Source of the DNA: Collinsella ihumii | GTDB taxonomy: Bacteria > Actinomycetota > Coriobacteriia > Coriobacteriales > Coriobacteriaceae | DNA length: 64,000 nt | Assembly: GCF_900046475.1 (NCBI RefSeq) | Contig: NZ_FCOU01000003.1 | Span: forward strand, 1-64,000 | Direction: 5' to 3' | Shown: one piece after another, positions 9,830-63,983 of the stretch | Layout: the number at the start of each line of letters is the position of its first letter | Position numbering within the stretch: the stretch's first letter is position 1 | Position numbers and translations under genes: made by a program | Notes under the pieces: generated by a model | Told to the model about the DNA's origin: nothing | Databases searched by the model: none | What the model saw: the letters and a program-made list of their open reading frames with translations, nothing else

Positions 9830-9982
9830 TTAGCCGAACAGCACCGTATAGGCGATAAGCGCGCATGCGACGGCAGTCGACAGAACGAGGGAGCCGAGTG
9901 CCCCGCGATCGTCTTTGAGCGGAACGATCGGCGCTTCGCTACCGTCCTCCAACACAAGAACCTCGCCGAGATGTTTCATCAT
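9830..9982 (-). CDS. Small single-pass membrane protein, 50 residues, unknown function
   Basis: A short frame missed by length cut-offs, with a strong GAGGAGGG Shine-Dalgarno ahead of tandem ATG codons (9982 and 9979). The predicted protein starts MMKHLGEVLVLEDGSEAPIV, then a charged KDDRG turn and one C-terminal hydrophobic helix (SLVLSTAVACALIAYTVLFG). It lies just downstream of the VanRS-like pair on the same strand, 92 bases after the kinase stop, and could be its regulatory partner or target. I recognise no family. The support is the consensus ribosome site, the coherent topology and the perfect stem immediately after the stop. Confidence 0.65.
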   Translation of the reverse strand: MMKHLGEVLVLEDGSEAPIVPLKDDRGALGSLVLSTAVACALIAYTVLFG

Positions 9983-10074
9983 GTGCACTCCCTCCTCTTT
10001 CCTTCTTCATCATACGAGCCAATTGAAAACGCCGTGTAAACGCTCGGATAAGTGTTTCTTGAAACCGCTTCGGA

Positions 10075-46692: not shown

Positions 46693-47133
46693 CTACTCCT
46701 CCGAAAGACCGATATACGCCTTGACGTCGTCGACGCCGCGGCGATCTTTGTTGCTGATATAGAAGATCCGGTCGCATCCGGCCAGCTCGAGCTTCTCGCG
46801 CGCCTGCTCGATGGCCTCGTCGCTCTCCGCGATATCGACCTTGCTCACCAGGCCCACGGTCGGCTTGCCGAACATCGTGGCGAAGCCCGGGGCGAACATG
46901 CACGTGTCGTCCGTGCAGTCCTGCACGAGCACGATGACCTCGGCGTCGGCGCCGCTCGTGATGAGGGCGCGGTACAAGGCGCGGTTCTCGACGAACTCGC
47001 CCGGCGTGTCGATCGCGTTGTTGACGATGTTCACGGCCTGAGTCTTTTTGTAAACGAGGTCCTCGCCCTGCATCGCCTGGGTGAAACTCGTCTTGCCTGC
47101 GCCGGTCTTGCCGACGAGCATGATGGTCTTCAC
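46693..47133 (-). CDS. eutP: EutP/PduV-like small GTPase-type protein
   Basis: 146 residues. P-loop GKTGAGKTS (residues 8-16), DTPGEFVENR and SKVDIAESD. EutP has been reported as an acetate kinase; PduV links compartments to filaments. Directly upstream of eutG. Confidence 0.93.
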   Translation of the reverse strand: MKTIMLVGKTGAGKTSFTQAMQGEDLVYKKTQAVNIVNNAIDTPGEFVENRALYRALITSGADAEVIVLVQDCTDDTCMFAPGFATMFGKPTVGLVSKVDIAESDEAIEQAREKLELAGCDRIFYISNKDRRGVDDVKAYIGLSEE

Positions 47134-47151: not shown

Positions 47152-47502
47152 TTACGAACGCGTGATCGGAGCCGAAGAGAACCGCAGCGTGTCGCACAGC
47201 ATGTGGATGACGGCCTCGAGCGCCGCCTGTACGCTCTCGACGTCGCCGGTGATGACGACCGAGCCGCTGAAGCGGTCCACGAAGGCAAGCTCGACGCCGG
47301 ACGCCTTGCTGGCGACGTCGCCGGCGATGATGGCGGCCTCGGACGGGGTGATGGTCAGAATGCCGATGGCGCCCTGGATGCCTCCGACGATGCCGAGCTT
47401 CTTGGCGAGGTCGGCCACGGGGTTGGCGATCACGTGCGCAAGCGTGACCTGCTTGCCCGGGACGAACTCTTGAATGATGCGCTGCTTGTCTTCCATGTGC
47501 AT
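47152..47502 (-). CDS. eutS: EutS-like microcompartment shell protein (bent BMC hexamer)
   Basis: 116 residues, close to EutS/PduU length. [22 protein letters not shown] is the N-terminal extension typical of EutS, then a permuted BMC fold ([44 protein letters not shown]). ATG 47502 or 47496; the weak AGGA site fits 47502. Confidence 0.9.
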
Positions 47503-47543: not shown

Positions 47544-47893
47544 TTACAAGCTTTGGAACAGCGCCTCGTCGGGCCGCGGGATCACCACGGCGTCGATAAG
47601 GCGCGAGGCGTCTGCGGCGACGGCCGACGCCGCCTCGACGGAGGCGGACACCGCCGCCACGTCGCCGGTGAGCACGAGGTAGCCCTTGCCGCCGATGCCG
47701 CCGCCCAGACGCAGGCGAACGAGCTCGACGTCGGCGGCCTTGACCGCCGTGTCCGCAGCGTGCACGCACGTCTCGACGGCGCTGCACTCGACGATGCCCG
47801 CCGCGTTGACCTCGGTCGTAAAGCGCGTGCCGCGAATGGCGCGCGCGACGCGCTCGTCAAGGCGCGCGAGCACGCAGGTGCCCGCGCACGCCG
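47544..47893 (-). pseudogene. pduT: PduT-like tandem-BMC shell protein, 5' end missing through an assembly chimera
   Basis: Only the C-terminal BMC domain and a few linker residues remain. From [20 protein letters not shown] through [15 protein letters not shown] to [10 protein letters not shown] it matches the second domain of PduT, a trimeric shell protein with an Fe-S site at the pore. The first BMC domain and start codon have been lost at the junction at about 47894. What lies just upstream is eutB-like sequence and adapter, not gene sequence. The real gene is probably intact in the organism. Confidence 0.8.
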
Positions 47894-47934
47894 TCGGAGT
47901 CGGTCTCGGCCGCCAAGCCGGCCAGTACGTCGCC
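47894..47934 (-). other. 41-bp misplaced eutB-like fragment next to the adapter
   Basis: These bases match eutB at 54146-54186 with two differences, both at third codon positions (Val GTA/GTG and Leu CTG/CTT), so the encoded GDVLAGLAAETDS is unchanged. It is out of frame with pduT. It must come from a eutB allele of another strain or copy and marks a chimeric join. Confidence 0.85.
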
Positions 47935-47971
47935 TGTCTCTTATACACATCTAGATGGGTATAAGAGACAG
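47934..47971. other. Two head-to-head Nextera transposon mosaic ends (assembly artefact)
   Basis: CTGTCTCTTATACACATCT (47934-47952) is the exact 19-base mosaic end; AGATGGGTATAAGAGACAG (47953-47971) is its reverse complement with one mismatch (G for T at 47958). Reading the minus strand gives the peptide SYTHLDVYKRQ, a known library-adapter translation. These bases are not part of the genome. Confidence 0.98.
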
Positions 47972-48560
47972 GGTGCATGGCGAGCGCCGAGGTGTCGGTC
48001 GCGCGCACGAGCACGTGGTCGAACGTCAGCGGGCGCTCGGTGTCCATGCGGACCGAGACGACCTCGCCGTCGTGGACGCCCAGGCGCTGCGCGTCAGCGG
48101 GCGTCATGTGGATGTGATTCTGGGCGACCATCACCGACTCGTCGGCGCGCACCATGGCGTCGCCGGCCTGGATGAACACGCCCGGACAGCCCGCCAGGTC
48201 GCCCGACAGGCGCAGGGGCGCCTTGACGCCGAGCGTGCGGGCGTCGGTCGCGGAGAGCTCAACCTGGGTGCGGGAACGCACCGGGCCCAGCACGGCCACG
48301 TTCTTGAACGTGCCCTTGGGGCCGATGACGGTCACGCGCTCTTCGCAGAGGAACTGCCCCGGCTGCGACAGGTCGCGCTTGGGCGTCAGCGTGTAGCCCG
48401 GGCCGAACAGGGCCTCGACGTGCTCCTGCGACAGGTGCACGTGCTTGGCCGAGATCTCGACCGGGATGCGGTCGCCGGCCGCGGCCGCAGGCGTGGGCGA
48501 GGCGGCAAGCATGCCGTTCACCACGCCGGCGACGATGCGGTAGAGTTCTTGCTCGTTCAT
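47972..48560 (-). pseudogene. pduL: PduL-type phosphotransacylase, 3' end missing through an assembly chimera
   Basis: About 196 residues remain: a short N-terminal helix (NEQELYRIVAGVVNGMLAA, a probable encapsulation peptide), then two PTAC domains. Zinc-ligand motifs ISAKHVHLSQEHVEALFG and QNHIHMTPADAQRLGV are intact. PduL converts acetyl-CoA to acetyl phosphate; here it replaces EutD. The last ~20 residues, after SALAMH, are lost at the mosaic end. Its ATG is three bases after the eutT stop, so coupling is likely. Confidence 0.85.
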
Positions 48561-48563
48561 GAC

Positions 48564-49361
48564 TCAGCTTTCCTTCGCGGTCCGCTCGGCGATGACGCCG
48601 AGCATCATGATGTAGAACGTGCTGCTCAGACGGTTGAGGGCGCGCACGAGGTCCGTGCGCTCCGAAGAACCGTCGGGTCGCTCGAACGCGGCCACGCACG
48701 CGAGCTCGACCTCGCGCGTCTCGGTGCGCAGCTTGTTGAGGCCCAGGGCGAGAGCCCCCATGTGCACGTCGGGCATGAGGTGACCGACACCCAAGTACTT
48801 CTTGGGGTTGTGCGACACGCGCCGCTGCGCGGCCTCGTCCATGCCCAGAAGCTCCGTGTCCTCGAGCGGCTTTTCGGCCACCTCGGCACCGAGGATCTTC
48901 CGGGCGAAGTCCAAGGTCTGCTGCAGGGCGTCCACGAGCTTCCCGTTGCCCTCCTCCAGCGCGTGCAGCTGCAGGTTCAGGATGTCGGCCTCAAGGTCGT
49001 CCAACCTGCCGCGAAGCGCGATGCGGGGGTGGGTCTTGGGCACGAGCACGTTGGCGTGAAGATGCGTCATGTGCTCGGGCTTCTCGGAAAGCCTGCGGCC
49101 GTCCAGGGTCACGAAGCGACCCTGGGCCATCTCCTTGGCAGGACGGATGGCGTCGTTTTCCGGCAGCGCGCCGCCGACCGGACGGGTGGTGCCCGTCGAT
49201 GCCGGCGGAACTCCGTCGACGATGAGGCGGATGCCGTTCTCGCGGATGTAGCTGCGCGCCTGATCGGTCACGTATGCGTCACGGGAGACGTGAATCTCGG
49301 TTTCGCCGCGCCTGAGGAACAGTTGGCGCACCGTATCCTCCTGTATGACTTCCCTGACCAT
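48564..49361 (-). CDS. eutT: EutT-like cobalamin adenosyltransferase
   Basis: 265 residues. Makes the adenosylcobalamin needed by EutBC. N-terminal strand-rich region followed by an adenosyltransferase helix bundle (THPRIALRGRLDDLEADILNLQ). The Cys-rich metal motif HX11CCX2C of Salmonella EutT is absent; only one Cys is present, as in metal-independent-type EutT of Firmicutes. Start ATG 49361. Confidence 0.88.
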   Translation of the reverse strand: MVREVIQEDTVRQLFLRRGETEIHVSRDAYVTDQARSYIRENGIRLIVDGVPPASTGTTRPVGGALPENDAIRPAKEMAQGRFVTLDGRRLSEKPEHMTHLHANVLVPKTHPRIALRGRLDDLEADILNLQLHALEEGNGKLVDALQQTLDFARKILGAEVAEKPLEDTELLGMDEAAQRRVSHNPKKYLGVGHLMPDVHMGALALGLNKLRTETREVELACVAAFERPDGSSERTDLVRALNRLSSTFYIMMLGVIAERTAKES

Positions 49362-49395
49362 TTCCCGCCTCGCTTACCTGATAGCGACCGCTCGC

Positions 49396-49677
49396 CTAGC
49401 CGACGTGCGGAAGGATGCCCTCGACCTCGGTGTGGGGGCGCGGGATGACGTGCACGGAGACGAGCTCGCCGACCTTGGTGGCGGCAGCGGCGCCCGCGTC
49501 GGTGGCGGCCTTGACGGCCCCCACGTCGCCGCGGACCATGACGGTCACCAGACCGCCGCCCACGTGCTCCTTGCCGACCAGCGTGACGTTGGCCGCCTTG
49601 ACCATCGCGTCCGCGGCCTCGATGGAGCCCACGAGGCCCTTCGTCTCGACCATGCCCAGTGCCTGCATGTTAGCCAT
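49396..49677 (-). CDS. eutM: EutM-like BMC shell hexamer
   Basis: 93 residues, canonical Pf00936 fold: [51 protein letters not shown]. It is the main facet protein of the compartment. Confidence 0.96.
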
Positions 49678-49796
49678 TGTTCTACCTCCTGTTTCTAACC
49701 CGTCGGCCTACCCGGCGGGATGAGAACCGAATGTGCGTGCGCCCCGGTTTCGGGCGCTTGCCCGGGCGCCCGTCAGGCGCCCGGATGCGCGATGCG

Positions 49797-51290
49797 CTAG
49801 TTGGCCTTCAGAACGGCGGCCAGAACCTCGCGGGTGATCCGCTCGACGTCCGCGGTGGACACCGTGGAGCAGGTGGCTGCGCAGGAGGCGCCGGCCGCGG
49901 GAGCGCAGGGCTGCCCGACCTCGGCGCGCAGCTGCTCGAGCTCCTTCAAGCCCCAGGCCACGCGGCGGATGTTGTAGAGATTCCTCGGCGAGATGTTGTC
50001 GGAGGTGGCGGAGCCGCCCACCGCGCCGCAGCCGAGGGTGAGGGCCGGAGCCAGGCCGGTGCTCGCGCCGACGCCGCCCAGCGAACCGGGGGTGTTGACG
50101 AGCAGGCGGCTGACCGGCTTCTTGAGCGCGAACTCGCGGATGACGTCCTCGTTCTGGGAGTGGATCGTCATGGTGTGGCCGGCGCCCTCGTTCTGGAGGA
50201 TCTCGATGCTCTTCTTGCACGCGCCCTCCCAGTCCTTCTCGACGAAGAACGCGAGGATCGGGCAGAGCTTCTCGCGGGAGTACGGATGGGTCTTGCCCAC
50301 CTCGGTCTGCTCGGAGACGAGCACGCGGGTGCCCTCGGGGATGGTGATGCCCGCCATGCGCGCGATGACCTGGGCGCTCTTGCCCACGATCGCCGGGTTC
50401 ATGGTGTTGTTGGCGCGCATGATGAACTTCTCGACGCGCTTGGACTGCTCCTCGTCCATGAAGTAACCGCCCTGGCGCTTCACCTCGGCGCGGACCTTGT
50501 CGGCGATGCACTCCTCGGTCACGATGGACTGCTCGGACGCGCAGATCGTGCCGTTATCGAAGGTCTTGGAGTCCATGATGCGCTTGACGGCCAGCGGGAT
50601 GTCGGCGGAGCGCTCGATGAACGAGGGACCGTTGCCCGGGCCCACGCCCAGCGCGGGGTTGCCCGAGCTGTACGCGGCGTGCACCATGGCCGAGCCGCCG
50701 GTGGCCAGGATGATGCCCGTGTCCTTGTTGGACATGAGCTCGTTGGTGGCCTGCATGGTCGTGGTCTCGATGACCCCGATGAGGCCTGCGGGCGCGCCGG
50801 CCTTCGCGGCGGCCTCCTGCACGATGCGCACCGCGGCGGTCGTGCACTTCTTGGCGCCCGGATGGGGGCTCACGATGATGGCGTTGCCCGCCTTGAGCGA
50901 GATGAGCGACTTGTACATCACCGTGGAGGTGGGGTTCGTCGACGGGATGATCGCGGCGACGATGCCCATGGGAACGGCGATCTCGAGGATCTTGTTCTCG
51001 CGGTCCTCGTTGATGACGCCGATCGTCTTCATGTCCTTGATGTACTCGTAGGTGATCTTGGAACCGAGGAGGTTCTTGACCACCTTGTCCTGCCAGATGC
51101 CGAAGCCGGTCTCCTCGACGGCCATCTTGGCCAGAGGCTCGGCCGCGTCGACACAGGCGTCGCAGATGACCTTCAGCAGCGCGTCAACACGCTCCTGGCT
51201 CCAGGTAGCGAACTCCTCCTGCGCCTTCTTCGCGGCGCGGATCAGGTCGCGGACCTCCTGGATGGACTGCAGATCGCGATCGAGTGCCAT
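49797..51290 (-). CDS. eutE: Coenzyme-A-acylating acetaldehyde dehydrogenase with C-terminal targeting helix
   Basis: 497 residues. Converts acetaldehyde and CoA to acetyl-CoA. Catalytic Cys250 in GTICASEQSIV; NAD motif GGSAMVHAAYSSGNPALGVGPG. After the catalytic domain come an Ala/Cys-rich linker (five Cys) and an amphipathic helix (about 478-497, ADVERITREVLAAVLKAN), the pattern of an encapsulation peptide. Many EutE put this helix at the N-terminus, where a helix is also seen here. Confidence 0.94.
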   Translation of the reverse strand: MALDRDLQSIQEVRDLIRAAKKAQEEFATWSQERVDALLKVICDACVDAAEPLAKMAVEETGFGIWQDKVVKNLLGSKITYEYIKDMKTIGVINEDRENKILEIAVPMGIVAAIIPSTNPTSTVMYKSLISLKAGNAIIVSPHPGAKKCTTAAVRIVQEAAAKAGAPAGLIGVIETTTMQATNELMSNKDTGIILATGGSAMVHAAYSSGNPALGVGPGNGPSFIERSADIPLAVKRIMDSKTFDNGTICASEQSIVTEECIADKVRAEVKRQGGYFMDEEQSKRVEKFIMRANNTMNPAIVGKSAQVIARMAGITIPEGTRVLVSEQTEVGKTHPYSREKLCPILAFFVEKDWEGACKKSIEILQNEGAGHTMTIHSQNEDVIREFALKKPVSRLLVNTPGSLGGVGASTGLAPALTLGCGAVGGSATSDNISPRNLYNIRRVAWGLKELEQLRAEVGQPCAPAAGASCAATCSTVSTADVERITREVLAAVLKAN

Positions 51291-51342
51291 GTCGTGTGTC
51301 AGCTCCTTTCAACAAATGGGTGGGTGCCCGTGCGCGGTGCTC

Positions 51343-51996
51343 TTACGCCTCGCGCGGGTTGTCGGCGATACGGCAGACCGCATCGGCGAAGGCGTCGCAG
51401 GCGGCCTTGCATGCCGCCTGGTCGCCCGCGAGCAGGCCGCCGGCGAAATTGGTCTCGGTCGGGGGCCCGTAGAAGCTCTTGAGGGTCACGTCGGCGGCCT
51501 TGAGCGCGTCGTCGAGGGCGCGCACGCCCTCGCACGGCGGGGCGATCAGGTAGGCCAGCGCCGTGCCCTGGTCGACAGTCGCCTGCTTGGCCAGGTAGCT
51601 GCCCACAGACGAGATGGTCTGGGCGAAGTAGACGATGGAGTCGTCGTCGTTGGCGCTGTTGAACGCCACGCCGTCCTCGATGTAGGCGATGGCCGCCTCC
51701 ATGCCCGAACGGACCTCCTCGGGGTTGACGCCCGCCAGGATGCCGATGAACTCGCCCGCCAGCTTGGTGGACGCGTTGCCGGCGCCGGCGTACATGCTGC
51801 GGGCGTACGCCACGCGCACGTCGGCCTTCTTGGTGGCCTCGTCAAGCGCGCAGTAGGACACGTCGTCGCAGTCGGTCGTGATGATGCCCAGACTCGAGTA
51901 GGCGCGGGCGACGCGCAGCTTCTTGAGCAGGGCCGGGTCGGCGTTGGGGATGTACTGAACGCTCAGGATGGAAACGGGAATCTTGTCTCCGCGCAT
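51343..51996 (-). CDS. eutL: EutL-like trimeric tandem-BMC shell protein
   Basis: 217 residues. Starts MRGDKIPVSILSVQYIPN and shows ARAYSSLGIITTDCDDV, GEFIGILAGVNPEEVRSGM and FYGPPTETNFAGGLLAG, as in EutL. EutL trimers form gated pores. Ten bases after eutC. Confidence 0.95.
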   Translation of the reverse strand: MRGDKIPVSILSVQYIPNADPALLKKLRVARAYSSLGIITTDCDDVSYCALDEATKKADVRVAYARSMYAGAGNASTKLAGEFIGILAGVNPEEVRSGMEAAIAYIEDGVAFNSANDDDSIVYFAQTISSVGSYLAKQATVDQGTALAYLIAPPCEGVRALDDALKAADVTLKSFYGPPTETNFAGGLLAGDQAACKAACDAFADAVCRIADNPREA

Positions 51997-52006
51997 GATG
52001 CCTCCC

Positions 52007-52897
52007 CTACCGCTGCAGATCGACGCCGCTCGTGCGGGCCTCGAGAATGGTCTTGATGAGCTGGGCCACGTGGGCGCCGGCCTCGGGAGCCGGGACGCCG
52101 CCGGAGTGGATGTTGGACACCACGGTGCGACGGCCCTCGGGCATGCCCACCTTGGCGCGGTAGGCGATGTAGGCGCTCATGGAGTTGGCCGTGACCAGGC
52201 CGGGACGCTCGCCCACGAGCACCATGGTGACCTCGGCGTCGAGCGTCTCGGACACCACGTCCATAGCCGGCACGCGACCGTAGCGCATGAAGAACGGGGT
52301 TCCGGTCTGGATGCCCAGATCCTGCAGGCCGTCCATGAGGGCGGGCAGAAAGTCCTCGATGTTGGCGTCGATGGCCTGGCTGGACAGGCCGTCGGCCACG
52401 TACACCTGGACCTGCGGGGACATCTGGCACTTGGAGCGCAGCTCGCGCTTGGTCTCCTCGGACAGCTGACGGCCCAGGTCGGGACGGGTCAGGTGTTCGT
52501 TGCGGTCGGAGCACAGCGTCTGGACCGTGAACAGGCCCATGCGGGCGAGCAGGTCCTCGTCGACGTCACGGAAGACCGCGTCACGGGCGCCGGCATGATC
52601 GGCGCGCAGCGTGAGGTAGGTGCGGGTGCGCAGGCGCGGGCCGGCGCTGCCCACGCCGATGCGGGCGGGCGTCGTCTTGCGCATCTGCTCGACCATGTCC
52701 ATGTTCTGGGCGCGCTCGAGCGTGATGGCGGTCTTGTTCTCCTGCGTGCGCAGGTCGATGAGCTCGCCGTTCTGCACGAGCGAGCCGGCGTCGCCGCGGT
52801 GAGCGACCGGGGCGCAGCAGGCGCCCGTGACGCCGGCGGAGCCGATCTGCTCCAGGACGGCGCGCGTAATCGAGGCGACCAGCTTCTCGTCCACCAT
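52007..52897 (-). CDS. eutC: Ethanolamine ammonia-lyase, small subunit
   Basis: 296 residues. Binds adenosylcobalamin with EutB and splits ethanolamine to acetaldehyde and ammonia. Motifs ARIGVGSAGPRLRTRTYLTLRADHA, ADGLSSQAIDAN, GERPGLVTANSMSAYIAYRAKVGMPEGRR. ATG 52897 overlaps the eutB stop by one base (TAATG). N-terminal ~35 residues form a probable targeting helix. Confidence 0.96.
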   Translation of the reverse strand: MVDEKLVASITRAVLEQIGSAGVTGACCAPVAHRGDAGSLVQNGELIDLRTQENKTAITLERAQNMDMVEQMRKTTPARIGVGSAGPRLRTRTYLTLRADHAGARDAVFRDVDEDLLARMGLFTVQTLCSDRNEHLTRPDLGRQLSEETKRELRSKCQMSPQVQVYVADGLSSQAIDANIEDFLPALMDGLQDLGIQTGTPFFMRYGRVPAMDVVSETLDAEVTMVLVGERPGLVTANSMSAYIAYRAKVGMPEGRRTVVSNIHSGGVPAPEAGAHVAQLIKTILEARTSGVDLQR

Positions 52898-54273
52898 TAC
52901 AGACCACTCCTCTCCGTGAAGATCGACGGGTCGCCGGCGCGGTCGGTCAGGCGGCCGTTCTCCATGATCCCGACCCGCTCGCACCAGCGCTCGAACTCGG
53001 CGATGGGATGCAGGCCGAGCACCTCGCGGACCGCGGCGGCGTCGTGGTAGGCGTTGGACTGGTAGTTGAGCATGACGTCGTCGCTCGCCGGAACGCCGAT
53101 GACGTAGTTGCAGCCGGCGGCGGCCAGCGACAGGGTCAGCGTCTCGAGGTCGTTCTGGTCGGCCATCATGTGGTTGGTGTAGCAGCAGTCGCAGCCCATG
53201 GGGATGCCGGACAGCTTGGCCATGAAGTGGTCCTCCAGGCCCGCGCGCATGACCTGCTTGGAGTCGTAGAGGTACTCCGGTCCGATAAAGCCGACGACGG
53301 TGTTGACCATGAACGGCTGGAACTGCTTGGCGTAGGCGTAGCAGCGGGCCTCCATGGTCACCTGGTCGGCGCCAAAGTGGGAGTCCGACGAGAGCTCGGA
53401 GCCCTGGCCGGTCTCGAAGTACATCACGTTCGGGCCCTTGGCCGTGCCCTTCTCGCGCAGCAGCGCCTGGGCCTCGCGGATGGTCTCGGTGGTGAAGCCG
53501 AAGGACTCGTTGCCCTTCTGGGAGCCGGCGATGGACTGGAAGATGAGGTCGGTCGGCGCACCCTGGCGCACGGCCTCCATCTGGGTGGTGATGTGGGCGA
53601 GCACGCAGATCTGCGTCGGGATCTGCCAGCGGCGCTTGACGTCATCGAAGCGCTCGAGGATCGCCTTGCAGGAGGCGGAGGTGTCGTTGACCGGGTTCAG
53701 GCCGATCAGCATGTCGCCGCAGCCGTAGGACAGGCCCTCGTACAGCGAGGCCGTGATGCCCTCCACGTCGTCGGTGGGGTGGTTGGGCTGCAGACGGGTC
53801 GAGAACGTGCCGCGACGGCCGGCGACCGTGTTGCACTCGCTCTCGACGTGGATCTTGTGGGCGGCGTACACCAGATCGAGGTTGCTCATGATCTTGGCGA
53901 CGCCGGCCACCATCTCGGCGGTCATGCCACGCGTGGCGCCCTTGATGTCCGCCTCGGTGGTGTCGTAGCTGAGCAGCCACTCGCGGAACTCGCCCACCGT
54001 CATGTTCTTGATGCGATTGTACTGGGCGGTGTCCACACCGTCCTGATCCATGCGCGTCACGTCGTCGATGTCGTAGTCGACGGCGGGGTGCTCGCGCAGA
54101 TCGCTCATGAGCATGTTGGCGAGCACTTCTTTGGCCGCGATGCGCTCGGAGTCGGTCTCGGCCGCCAAGCCGGCAAGCACGTCGCCGCTCTTCTGCTCGT
54201 TTGCCTTGGCCATGACGTCCTTCACGTCCTTGAACGCGTAGGTGCGCCCCGCCAGGGTAGTCTTGAGGATCAC
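52897..54273 (-). CDS. eutB: Ethanolamine ammonia-lyase, large subunit
   Basis: 458 residues, close to the 453 of E. coli. TIM-barrel catalytic subunit with FSTRLQPNHPTDD, YGCGDMLIGLNPVND, FETGQGSELSSDSHFGADQVTMEARCYA and GYDCCYTNHMMADQND-like motif (MGCDCCYTNHM). Complete and in frame. A 41-bp piece of a variant allele is misplaced at 47894. Confidence 0.97.
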   Translation of the reverse strand: MILKTTLAGRTYAFKDVKDVMAKANEQKSGDVLAGLAAETDSERIAAKEVLANMLMSDLREHPAVDYDIDDVTRMDQDGVDTAQYNRIKNMTVGEFREWLLSYDTTEADIKGATRGMTAEMVAGVAKIMSNLDLVYAAHKIHVESECNTVAGRRGTFSTRLQPNHPTDDVEGITASLYEGLSYGCGDMLIGLNPVNDTSASCKAILERFDDVKRRWQIPTQICVLAHITTQMEAVRQGAPTDLIFQSIAGSQKGNESFGFTTETIREAQALLREKGTAKGPNVMYFETGQGSELSSDSHFGADQVTMEARCYAYAKQFQPFMVNTVVGFIGPEYLYDSKQVMRAGLEDHFMAKLSGIPMGCDCCYTNHMMADQNDLETLTLSLAAAGCNYVIGVPASDDVMLNYQSNAYHDAAAVREVLGLHPIAEFERWCERVGIMENGRLTDRAGDPSIFTERSGL

Positions 54274-54288
54274 TGACTTTCTCCTTCC

Positions 54289-55715
54289 TTATCCGAAAAT
54301 CAACGTCTTGACGACGACCGGGATCGCCAGGCCGCCCATAAGCGGGCGCCCCAGGTCCAGATAGTCGCCGGGAATCGCCTGGATGCTGTCGATGCAGATC
54401 AGGCGGCGGTCCGGCAGGCGCCTGCGGAGCGCCTGTCCGAGCACCTTGGCGAAGTCGTCCTCCACGAGCACGAGCAGCGGCTCGCCCTCGGGGATCGCGG
54501 AGCTTGCGCGCACGAGGGCGTCGGCCAGGCGGCAGACAGTCGCGTATCCGGGACGCTTCACGCGGTTGATGCAGAACACGAGGTTGCTCGCCGCGGACTC
54601 GCCGAGATACCAGGCCGCCTGGCGCGCGAGCTTATCGCCATCCCCCTCGAGCGCGGCGCGCTCGGCATCCTCCGTGGCGAAAAACGCCGGGAGATTCTTC
54701 ATGGGGAACAGGCCCTCGTCGGTGAACTCGATGGTCGAGCCGCTCACCGTCGTGGTGTAGGAGCCGGCGCCCACCACGGTCGCGCGGATCGTCTCGCGCG
54801 GCTCGATGAGCTTCGCCGCGCGCGGGATCAGTCCCTCGCGCAGGCTCGCCGCCAGGATGGGACCGATGTCGCCGTAGCGGAACCAGTCCGTGTGCGGCCG
54901 GTAGATCGCCTCGGACACGCCGCCGGAAAACGACACGCAGTCGATGGGCACGCCCACGGCGAGGTCGCTTCCCTCGGGCGTGCGGATCTCGTCGCACAGG
55001 GGCGTGCGCGGGCAGAGGCCGAGCGCTTCGGCCAGCAGGCCGGCCATGCGGTCGGTCACGCGGCGGATGGTGCCCGCGTCGGCTCGCCGACGACGAGCTC
55101 GATGCCCAGGCTCCGCGCGACCGCGGCGATGCGCGGGCTCACGTAGGTCATGCGACCGTCGGCGTCCACGCGCACCAGGCGCCCGCCGATGTCCCAGCAT
55201 GCCTTGGAGACCAGGTCTCCGCAGTGGAACACCGCGATGTTGGAGGTGCCGCCCCCCACATCGACGTTGGCGACGGTGCAGGCGAACTCACGCGAGTAGT
55301 CCTGGGCGCCGGCGCCCTTGGCGGCGATGATGGACTCCAGGTCGGGACCGGCGGAGGCCACCACGAACTCGCCGGCGAGCTCGGACATGCTCTCGGTCAC
55401 GAGCTCGGCGTTCTCCTTGCGGGAGGACTCGCCCGTGATGATGACCGCACCGGTCTGCACGTCGGCCGGCGTGATGCCGGCGCGCTCGTATTCCCGCTCG
55501 ATCAGCGAGGCGACGGCCGCCACGTCGATCCGGTTGCCCGACGCCTGCGGCGTGGGGTAGATCTCGGAGCGGTAGACGATCTCGGCGCCCGTGATGGCGA
55601 CGTGCGGAGCCGTGAAGCCCGACGCCGTGTTGGCCACGGCGAGACGGCTCACGACCATGCTCGTGGTGGACGTACCGATGTCGATGCCCACGCTCGTGAT
55701 CGTGCTCGCGTCCAT
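54289..55715 (-). pseudogene. eutA: EutA reactivating factor, split by a one-base frameshift
   Basis: The ATPase that reactivates cobalamin-inactivated ammonia-lyase. The N-terminal part (55715 to about 55080) has GIDIGTSTTSMVVSRL and NVDVGGGTSNIAVF. The second part (to 54289) continues in another frame from AGTIRRVTDRMAGLLAEALG through SFSGGVSEAI. Adding one base near 55080 (ELVVGEP followed by DAGTIRRV) restores 475 residues, the family length. No independent start suits the second part. The gene is probably intact in life, with the lost base an assembly error; a true mutation cannot be excluded. Confidence 0.85.
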
Positions 55716-62054: not shown

Positions 62055-62164
62055 AGCGCCCGTGCCGAGGGGCCGCTCGCCACGGGCGACCGGCGCGTTG
62101 GCGTATACTTCGCAGAGGTATCATGCAATCTCCGTCGGCCCGCCCGACGCGCAAAGGAGGCCCC

Positions 62165-63004
62165 ATGGCGAGCATCAGTGTCGATTACTATTCCTCTTCG
62201 CTCATGCGCACGACCACGCTGAACGTGATCTTGCCGTTTGATAACCCAAACGACGCGTGGGCGGTCGACGCCAGCCTGCGCCGCGACCCGCACAACTGGG
62301 ACGCCGCCCCCTACCCGCCGCACAAGGCGCCGTTCCGCACGCTCATCCTGCTGCACGGCATCAATGGAAACCATACCGACATCATCTCGGAGACCCGCAT
62401 CACCAAGTGGGCGGCCGACCACCAGCTCGCCGTCGTCATGCCCTCGGGCTACAACGCGTTCTACGTCGACAACCCCGAGACGCACAACTACTTCGGGCGC
62501 TTCGTGGGCCTCGAGCTGCCGCACGTCGTCCGCCGCATGTTCCCGCTGTCCGAGCGCCGCGAGGACATGTTCATCGGCGGCATCTCCATGGGCGCGTACG
62601 GCGCGCTGCGCAACGGCTTCAAGTACGCCGAGAACTTCGGCGCCATCATCGCCCTGTCCAGCGCCATGATCATCGACAACTTCGACGCGCTCATCCGCGA
62701 CGAGCCGTTCTTCCTGTCCCGCCCCTTCCTCGAGTCGACGTTCGGCGACCTCAACCGCGTCATCGACTCCGACAAGGATCCCGCGCGCCTCGCCGCCGAC
62801 GTGGTCTACTGCGATCGCCCGCGCCCGCGCGTCTTCATGGCCTGGGGATCCTCCGATCCCCTCGCGCAGCCCAACCGCGTGCTGGCGGCCCGCCTGCGCG
62901 GCACGGGCATCGAGGTCGAACAGCGCGAGTTCGCCGGCGGCCACGACTGGGACTTCTGGAACCAGGCACTTCCCCAGGCGCTCGATTGGCTGCCGAGGGA
63001 CTAG
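62165..63004 (+). CDS. FrmB/esterase D-like alpha/beta hydrolase
   Basis: 279 residues. Oxyanion region LILLHGINGNHTD, nucleophile Ser in GGISMGAYGAL, acid Asp near SSDPLAQ, and His in AGGHDWDFW. Resembles tributyrin esterase/S-formylglutathione hydrolase. AAAGGAGG precedes ATG 62165. Its paralogue follows 91 bases later. Confidence 0.88.
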   Translation: MASISVDYYSSSLMRTTTLNVILPFDNPNDAWAVDASLRRDPHNWDAAPYPPHKAPFRTLILLHGINGNHTDIISETRITKWAADHQLAVVMPSGYNAFYVDNPETHNYFGRFVGLELPHVVRRMFPLSERREDMFIGGISMGAYGALRNGFKYAENFGAIIALSSAMIIDNFDALIRDEPFFLSRPFLESTFGDLNRVIDSDKDPARLAADVVYCDRPRPRVFMAWGSSDPLAQPNRVLAARLRGTGIEVEQREFAGGHDWDFWNQALPQALDWLPRD

Positions 63005-63095
63005 TTTTACCGAATCGACGCGCCCTGCAAAAGGCGCGTCGGGTATAACAGAATAAGTTCGGCTCCACGAGCTGCACGTGAAGGAGAGATCTGCA

Positions 63096-63983
63096 ATGGC
63101 ATTGCTCAAAGTCGATTTTTATTCCAACTACCTTCAGCGCAACGTCATCCTGACCGCCGTCATACCCGTCGACAAGATGGACGGCCCCAAGCTCGCCAAA
63201 CGCCGCCAGGGCCCGTACCGCACGGTCTATCTGCTGCACGGCCTGTTCGGTCGCGATTACGACTGGATCGACAAGACGCATGTCGTCGAGACCGCCGAGG
63301 CCCGCGACGTAGTCGTCATCATGCCGTCGGGCGAAGACGGTCTGTACCTGAACAAACCCGAGATCAACGAATGGCACGGCAAGTTCATCAGCGAGGAGCT
63401 CGTCGATGTGACCCGCCGCTTGTTCCCGCTGTCGCGCAAACGCGAGGACACCGCACTCGCCGGCATCTCCATCGGCGCCTACACCGCCCTGATCAACGGC
63501 CTGCAGCGACCCGATCGCTTCGGCAGCATCATCGCCCTGTCCGGCGCCTTCATGCGCGACCGCATCATCGAGGCGGTCGAATCCCACTCGCCGCGCAAGC
63601 GCAGGTACTACGAGCGCTGGTTCGGCGACCTCGACACGGTCATCGGCAGCGAGAAGGACTACGTCGCCATGATCGACCGCTTCAAGAACGACCCCGACCT
63701 GCCCAAGCCCAAGTTCTACGGCGCATGCGGCGAGCACGACAACCTGTGCGAGAACAACCGCGAGGTCGTGGAGCTTCTGCAGGACGCCGACTTCGACGTC
63801 ACGTACTGGGAGCCCGAGATCGGCAGCCACGAGTGGCCGTTCTGGAACGCATGGATCGACTGCGCGCTCGACTGGTTCGCCCCCGGCGAGATGAAACCGT
63901 CGTCGGCCAACGTCGACTACTCCGGCATCACCAACCTGCGCCCGCCCGATGAGGGCAAGTTCGTGCTCAAGGACAACGACTAG
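63096..63983 (+). CDS. Second FrmB/esterase D-like alpha/beta hydrolase
   Basis: 295 residues, distinctly similar to the preceding gene. YLLHGLFGRDYDW, nucleophile in AGISIGAYTAL, ACGEHDNLC and GSHEWPFW. AAGGAGAG precedes ATG 63096. Tandem duplication followed by divergence is likely. Substrates unknown. Confidence 0.88.
   Translation: MALLKVDFYSNYLQRNVILTAVIPVDKMDGPKLAKRRQGPYRTVYLLHGLFGRDYDWIDKTHVVETAEARDVVVIMPSGEDGLYLNKPEINEWHGKFISEELVDVTRRLFPLSRKREDTALAGISIGAYTALINGLQRPDRFGSIIALSGAFMRDRIIEAVESHSPRKRRYYERWFGDLDTVIGSEKDYVAMIDRFKNDPDLPKPKFYGACGEHDNLCENNREVVELLQDADFDVTYWEPEIGSHEWPFWNAWIDCALDWFAPGEMKPSSANVDYSGITNLRPPDEGKFVLKDND

Follow-up and report, generated by a model that had tools for sequence, protein, structure and literature searches.

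An apparent PduL-BMC fusion in a Collinsella ihumii eut operon as a very probable product of an untrimmed mate-pair read

Nextera mate-pair libraries are made from tagmented fragments of kilobase size that are circularised through biotinylated junction adapters, and the resulting reads require trimming (PMC4074385, PMC6298255). The biotin-labelled adapter that closes such rings has been printed as a 38-mer (PMC7357533). The eut operons of Bacillota (L011, L012, L022 and L026) have the order eutD/pduL, then a TIGR02536 gene, eutN and often an RnfC-like gene, then pduT-eutS-eutP. We analysed a stretch of 64,000 nucleotides of the Collinsella ihumii assembly (the window), in which the two subjects meet: within a eut operon, a phosphate acyltransferase gene appears to be fused to a shell protein gene, and the linker contains this 38-mer.

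The frame at 47544-48560 on the minus strand is open along its whole length of 338 codons. As a reading made from the sequence only had reported, it joins PduL/EutD to a BMC domain, the second one of a PduT-type shell protein, through the peptide SYTHLDVYKRQ. The 338-residue product reads ...LAMHP-VSYTHLDVYKRQ-ATYWPAW... around the join. Residues 33-196 match the PTAC profile (PduL/EutD family), residues 253-330 match one BMC domain, and the two matches are separated by the peptide and a stretch free of homology; a literature search found no mention of SYTHLDVYKRQ by name. On the PduL side, positions 1-164 of the 176 of the full-length PTAC domain (PF06130) are present and the remainder is cut off by the adapter. 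In L011, the closest relative found (PduL 67% identical), the homologue continues with VDFDEANACALPKDGKGKILK after LAMH, where the pduL of the window stops. The pduL gene is thus genuine and its end is lost. On the shell side, the tandem-BMC family profile (eut_PduT, TIGR02526; two BMC domains, more than 250.3 bits) is covered at positions 76-181 of 182 only, with 68 bits, below a cut-off that the full-length PduT proteins of relatives (128-141 bits) do not reach either. This part is 57% identical to the pduT product of L011 over 113 residues and is the remnant of a tandem-BMC PduT gene. The features of the region are listed in Table 1.

Table 1. Features of the eut region, in window coordinates
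Feature	Position	Strand	Basis
eutP	46693-47133	-	PduV-EutP / TIGR02528 over cut-off
eutS-type BMC shell gene, pduT-side neighbour as in relatives	47152-47499	-	BMC domain; adjoins pduT and eutP in relatives
pduT-type shell gene, 3' portion (last part of domain 1, whole of BMC domain 2)	47544-47893	-	BMC domain 253-330; eut_PduT 76-181/182
Misplaced 40-bp eutB copy, predicted other end of a circularised 6,214-bp fragment	47894-47933	-	38/40 identical to 54146-54185
38-bp palindromic Nextera mate-pair junction adapter, 1 mismatch	47934-47971		two mosaic ends; sequence printed in PMC7357533
pduL/eutD (phosphate acyltransferase) without about the last 18-19 codons	47972-48560	-	PTAC profile 1-164/176; L011 homologue
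eutT-like cobalamin adenosyltransferase, pduL-side neighbour as in relatives	48564-49361	-	profile matches
True locus of the 40-bp eutB segment, within eutB 52897-54273	54146-54185	-	sequence match

The bases that encode the peptide, 47934-47971, are CTGTCTCTTATACACATCTAGATGGGTATAAGAGACAG. They consist of two 19-bp Tn5 mosaic ends arranged head to head, 47934-47952 being exact and 47953-47971 carrying one mismatch, and none would be expected by chance. The origin of SYTHLDVYKRQ in two mosaic ends, proposed by the sequence-only reading, was thereby confirmed. The 38-mer equals its reverse complement, and the end cut by Tn5 in the mate-pair fragment is base 47972. The 40 bases on the other side of the adapter, 47894-47933, where the sequence-only reading had begun its interval, turned out not to belong to pduT: they copy eutB (54146-54185), 38 of 40 bases being identical, in the same orientation and 6,214 bp away. 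According to codon statistics, about 36 bases beside the adapter are coding-like in a frame other than that of the pduT sequence beyond; therefore 'ATYWPAWRPRPTPT' does not belong to pduT but is an out-of-frame reading of eutB. A one-base frameshift of pduT near 47895, first hinted at by the same statistics, was dropped, the stretch being the eutB copy. The order of the eutB scrap and pduL is everted, as given by the circularisation of a 6.2-kb fragment: once closed into a ring, the fragment 47972-54185 reads eutB-adapter-pduL, an exact match to the order in the window. Further along, eutA (54289-55715, minus strand) consists of two frames that overlap (55056-55715 and 54289-55200) and match the EutA profile at 2-210 and 208-474 with no loss; the frameshift near 55100 reflects a sequencing error or a genuine lesion, and the adapter is absent there.

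The whole genome (2.84 Mb in 35 contigs) was scanned for the 38-mer. The assembly contains 32 such junctions, several of them no more than about 120 bases from the end of a contig, the one in the window being accompanied by copies at 31 other, unrelated places. The sequence outside the adapters follows the Tn5 target preference (3.31 compared to 2.34 +/- 0.15 for 61 flanks; none of 2000 random sets scored as high). A displaced copy of the adapter-adjacent flank was found nearby at 17 of the 32 junctions, including eutB here, and all 17 are same-strand copies located on the everted side, 1.7-6.7 kb away; at control positions, 20 of 504 flanks had an adjacent copy. No displaced flank was detected at the other 15 junctions, where the scraps could be short or absent. 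Taken together, 31 of the 32 adapter copies carry 47 substitutions in 1178 bases (about 4%), most commonly A>C, as expected of individual raw reads but not of an assembled consensus. Degraded, error-laden TruSeq sequence is present about 20-50 bases past three junctions, as expected of read-through on short sheared mate-pair molecules.

A number of junctions were looked at individually. TruSeq adapter remnants lie beside mate-pair junctions at L112 2013-2060, L121 2117-2160 and L128 2098-2145. At the junction in folC, the displaced piece derives from valS, at a distance of 3.9 kb (both names given by recognising the protein sequences, not by family search). In gatA, named from sequence motifs, the adapter has gatA sequence on both sides (L166, about 9969-10006, C3:514068); this junction is a collinear gap closed in the same wrong way. 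A stretch of 1.3 kb, 96% identical, spans the junction adapter on two contigs (C3, about 369,300-370,600, and C8, about 62,100-63,400; L168 10033-11301 and L172 9940-11217); these are either genuine paralogues or the same contig end joined on in two places. Outside this genome, seven stretches of public viral contigs (IMG/VR, L133-L139) contain the exact 38-bp adapter and are probably affected by the same artefact.

Combined, the adapter, the eutB copy, its everted order and distance, the genome-wide pattern and the truncation of both genes, all observed directly, indicate on internal and comparative grounds that the frame is almost certainly an assembly artefact, in which a gap in the eut operon, from pduL to the second half of pduT, would have been closed with an untrimmed Nextera mate-pair read. 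During library making, Tn5 would have cut out the 6,214-bp fragment (47972-54185) and attached the 19-bp mosaic end to each of its ends; circularisation of the fragment would then have followed. The resulting read would run from eutB (ending at 54185) through the 38-bp junction adapter into pduL (from 47972). We infer that the assembler anchored the pduL part rightly and butted the eutB scrap onto the pduT contig. The length of the frame would then be an accident, the adapter and the eutB bases having no stops in that frame. Since the gene order is collinear with that of relatives, the scaffold would be right and the fill alone wrong.

A real fusion, anchoring the phosphotransacylase to the shell of the compartment, would be expected to keep 338 codons open and both domains recognisable, and both are seen. 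However, the join is not one of native coding sequences, the linker being a laboratory adapter followed by off-frame eutB; the two proteins are truncated compared to the complete, separate genes of relatives, which have other genes in between; and the same 38-mer recurs at the unrelated sites elsewhere in the genome. We give this reading practically no credence. The mosaic ends and the Tn5 target bias would also be left by the insertion in vivo of a Tn5-like or other element bearing mosaic ends, followed by a deletion. No element lies between the mosaic ends, however, and the 9-bp target duplication was found at none of 31 junctions, which argues against such an insertion. The everted flanks displaced by mate-pair distances and the read-like errors within the 38-mer are equally at odds with it, and neither the 20,395 complete E. 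coli records nor the 50,697 phage records searched gave a match, so that the probability of such an insertion is negligible too.

The remaining alternative concerns the type of library. The sequence-only reading had called the frame an assembly chimera with embedded Nextera adapters. The chimera is borne out by the adapter, the displaced eutB copy and the recurrence of such junctions, and the sequence is indeed Nextera; the wording, however, implied ordinary paired-end read-through, with two separate library adapters joined by the assembler. The 19-bp mosaic end, half of the sequence, is common to both types of library and would allow this, but the full 38-mer palindrome is the adapter of a circularised junction, and the 17 everted flanks at kilobase distances come from circularised fragments and not from short inserts. 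Two ordinary adapters are therefore extremely unlikely, and a single mate-pair junction adapter takes their place.

The sequence-only reading had also held that the end of pduL, the first BMC domain of pduT and possibly other eut genes are missing, and the operons of relatives agree with this and allowed both the identity and the length of the missing DNA to be estimated. L011 carries eutM-eutM-eutT-pduL-(TIGR02536 gene)-eutN-pduT-eutS-eutP, and the two points that the window joins lie 1.28 kb apart there. In other relatives, several of which also carry an RnfC-like gene, the pduT-eutS-eutP and eutM-eutT-pduL blocks are 1.8-2.7 kb apart. Judged from these relatives, whose PduL is at most 67% identical, about 1.3-2.7 kb is probably absent from the window. 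The lost part should comprise the last 18-19 codons of pduL, the TIGR02536 gene, eutN and the first half of pduT with its BMC domain, and perhaps also an RnfC-like (pduS-type) gene. EutN was not found anywhere in the assembly, BMC domains occur in this operon only, and TIGR02536 gave a sub-threshold match only, inside the eutT gene; an RnfC-like gene is present on another contig of this genome (31% identity). Among the congeners searched for the operon, a PduL/BMC set was found only in G025 and G046, in another gene order, and the gap is therefore not measurable from congeners; when the search was extended within the class, all PduT matches were distant ones. That the artefact hides an unusual real arrangement, for example an ethanolamine compartment truly devoid of the vertex protein gene eutN, is very unlikely.

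In conclusion, the PduL-BMC frame is not a biological feature, and the correction of both annotation and assembly is firm. A database protein derived from it would be a false enzyme-shell fusion, which upholds the warning of the sequence-only reading against annotating it as one, and a survey would wrongly record a compartment without EutN or a complete PduT. Many of the 32 junctions lie inside reading frames (gatA, folC, a sugar kinase and others); apparent fusions, truncations and missing genes in this assembly therefore need checking. The everted-flank test distinguishes mate-pair artefacts from real fusions and requires the assembly alone, not the reads.

Compared to the eut operons of Bacillota, the flanking genes of the window have the same order and orientation, whereas the genes between them, together with the 3' end of pduL and the first half of pduT, have been lost from the assembled sequence at the gap. 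Compared to the untrimmed Nextera (long) mate-pair junction adapter, the junction shows no essential difference: the 38-bp sequence, the Tn5 target bias, the everted flanks at kilobase distance and, at some sites, the TruSeq read-through past the junction are all shared. What the window adds is that the read has also served as gap filler, so that the contigs stay collinear and a long false frame results.
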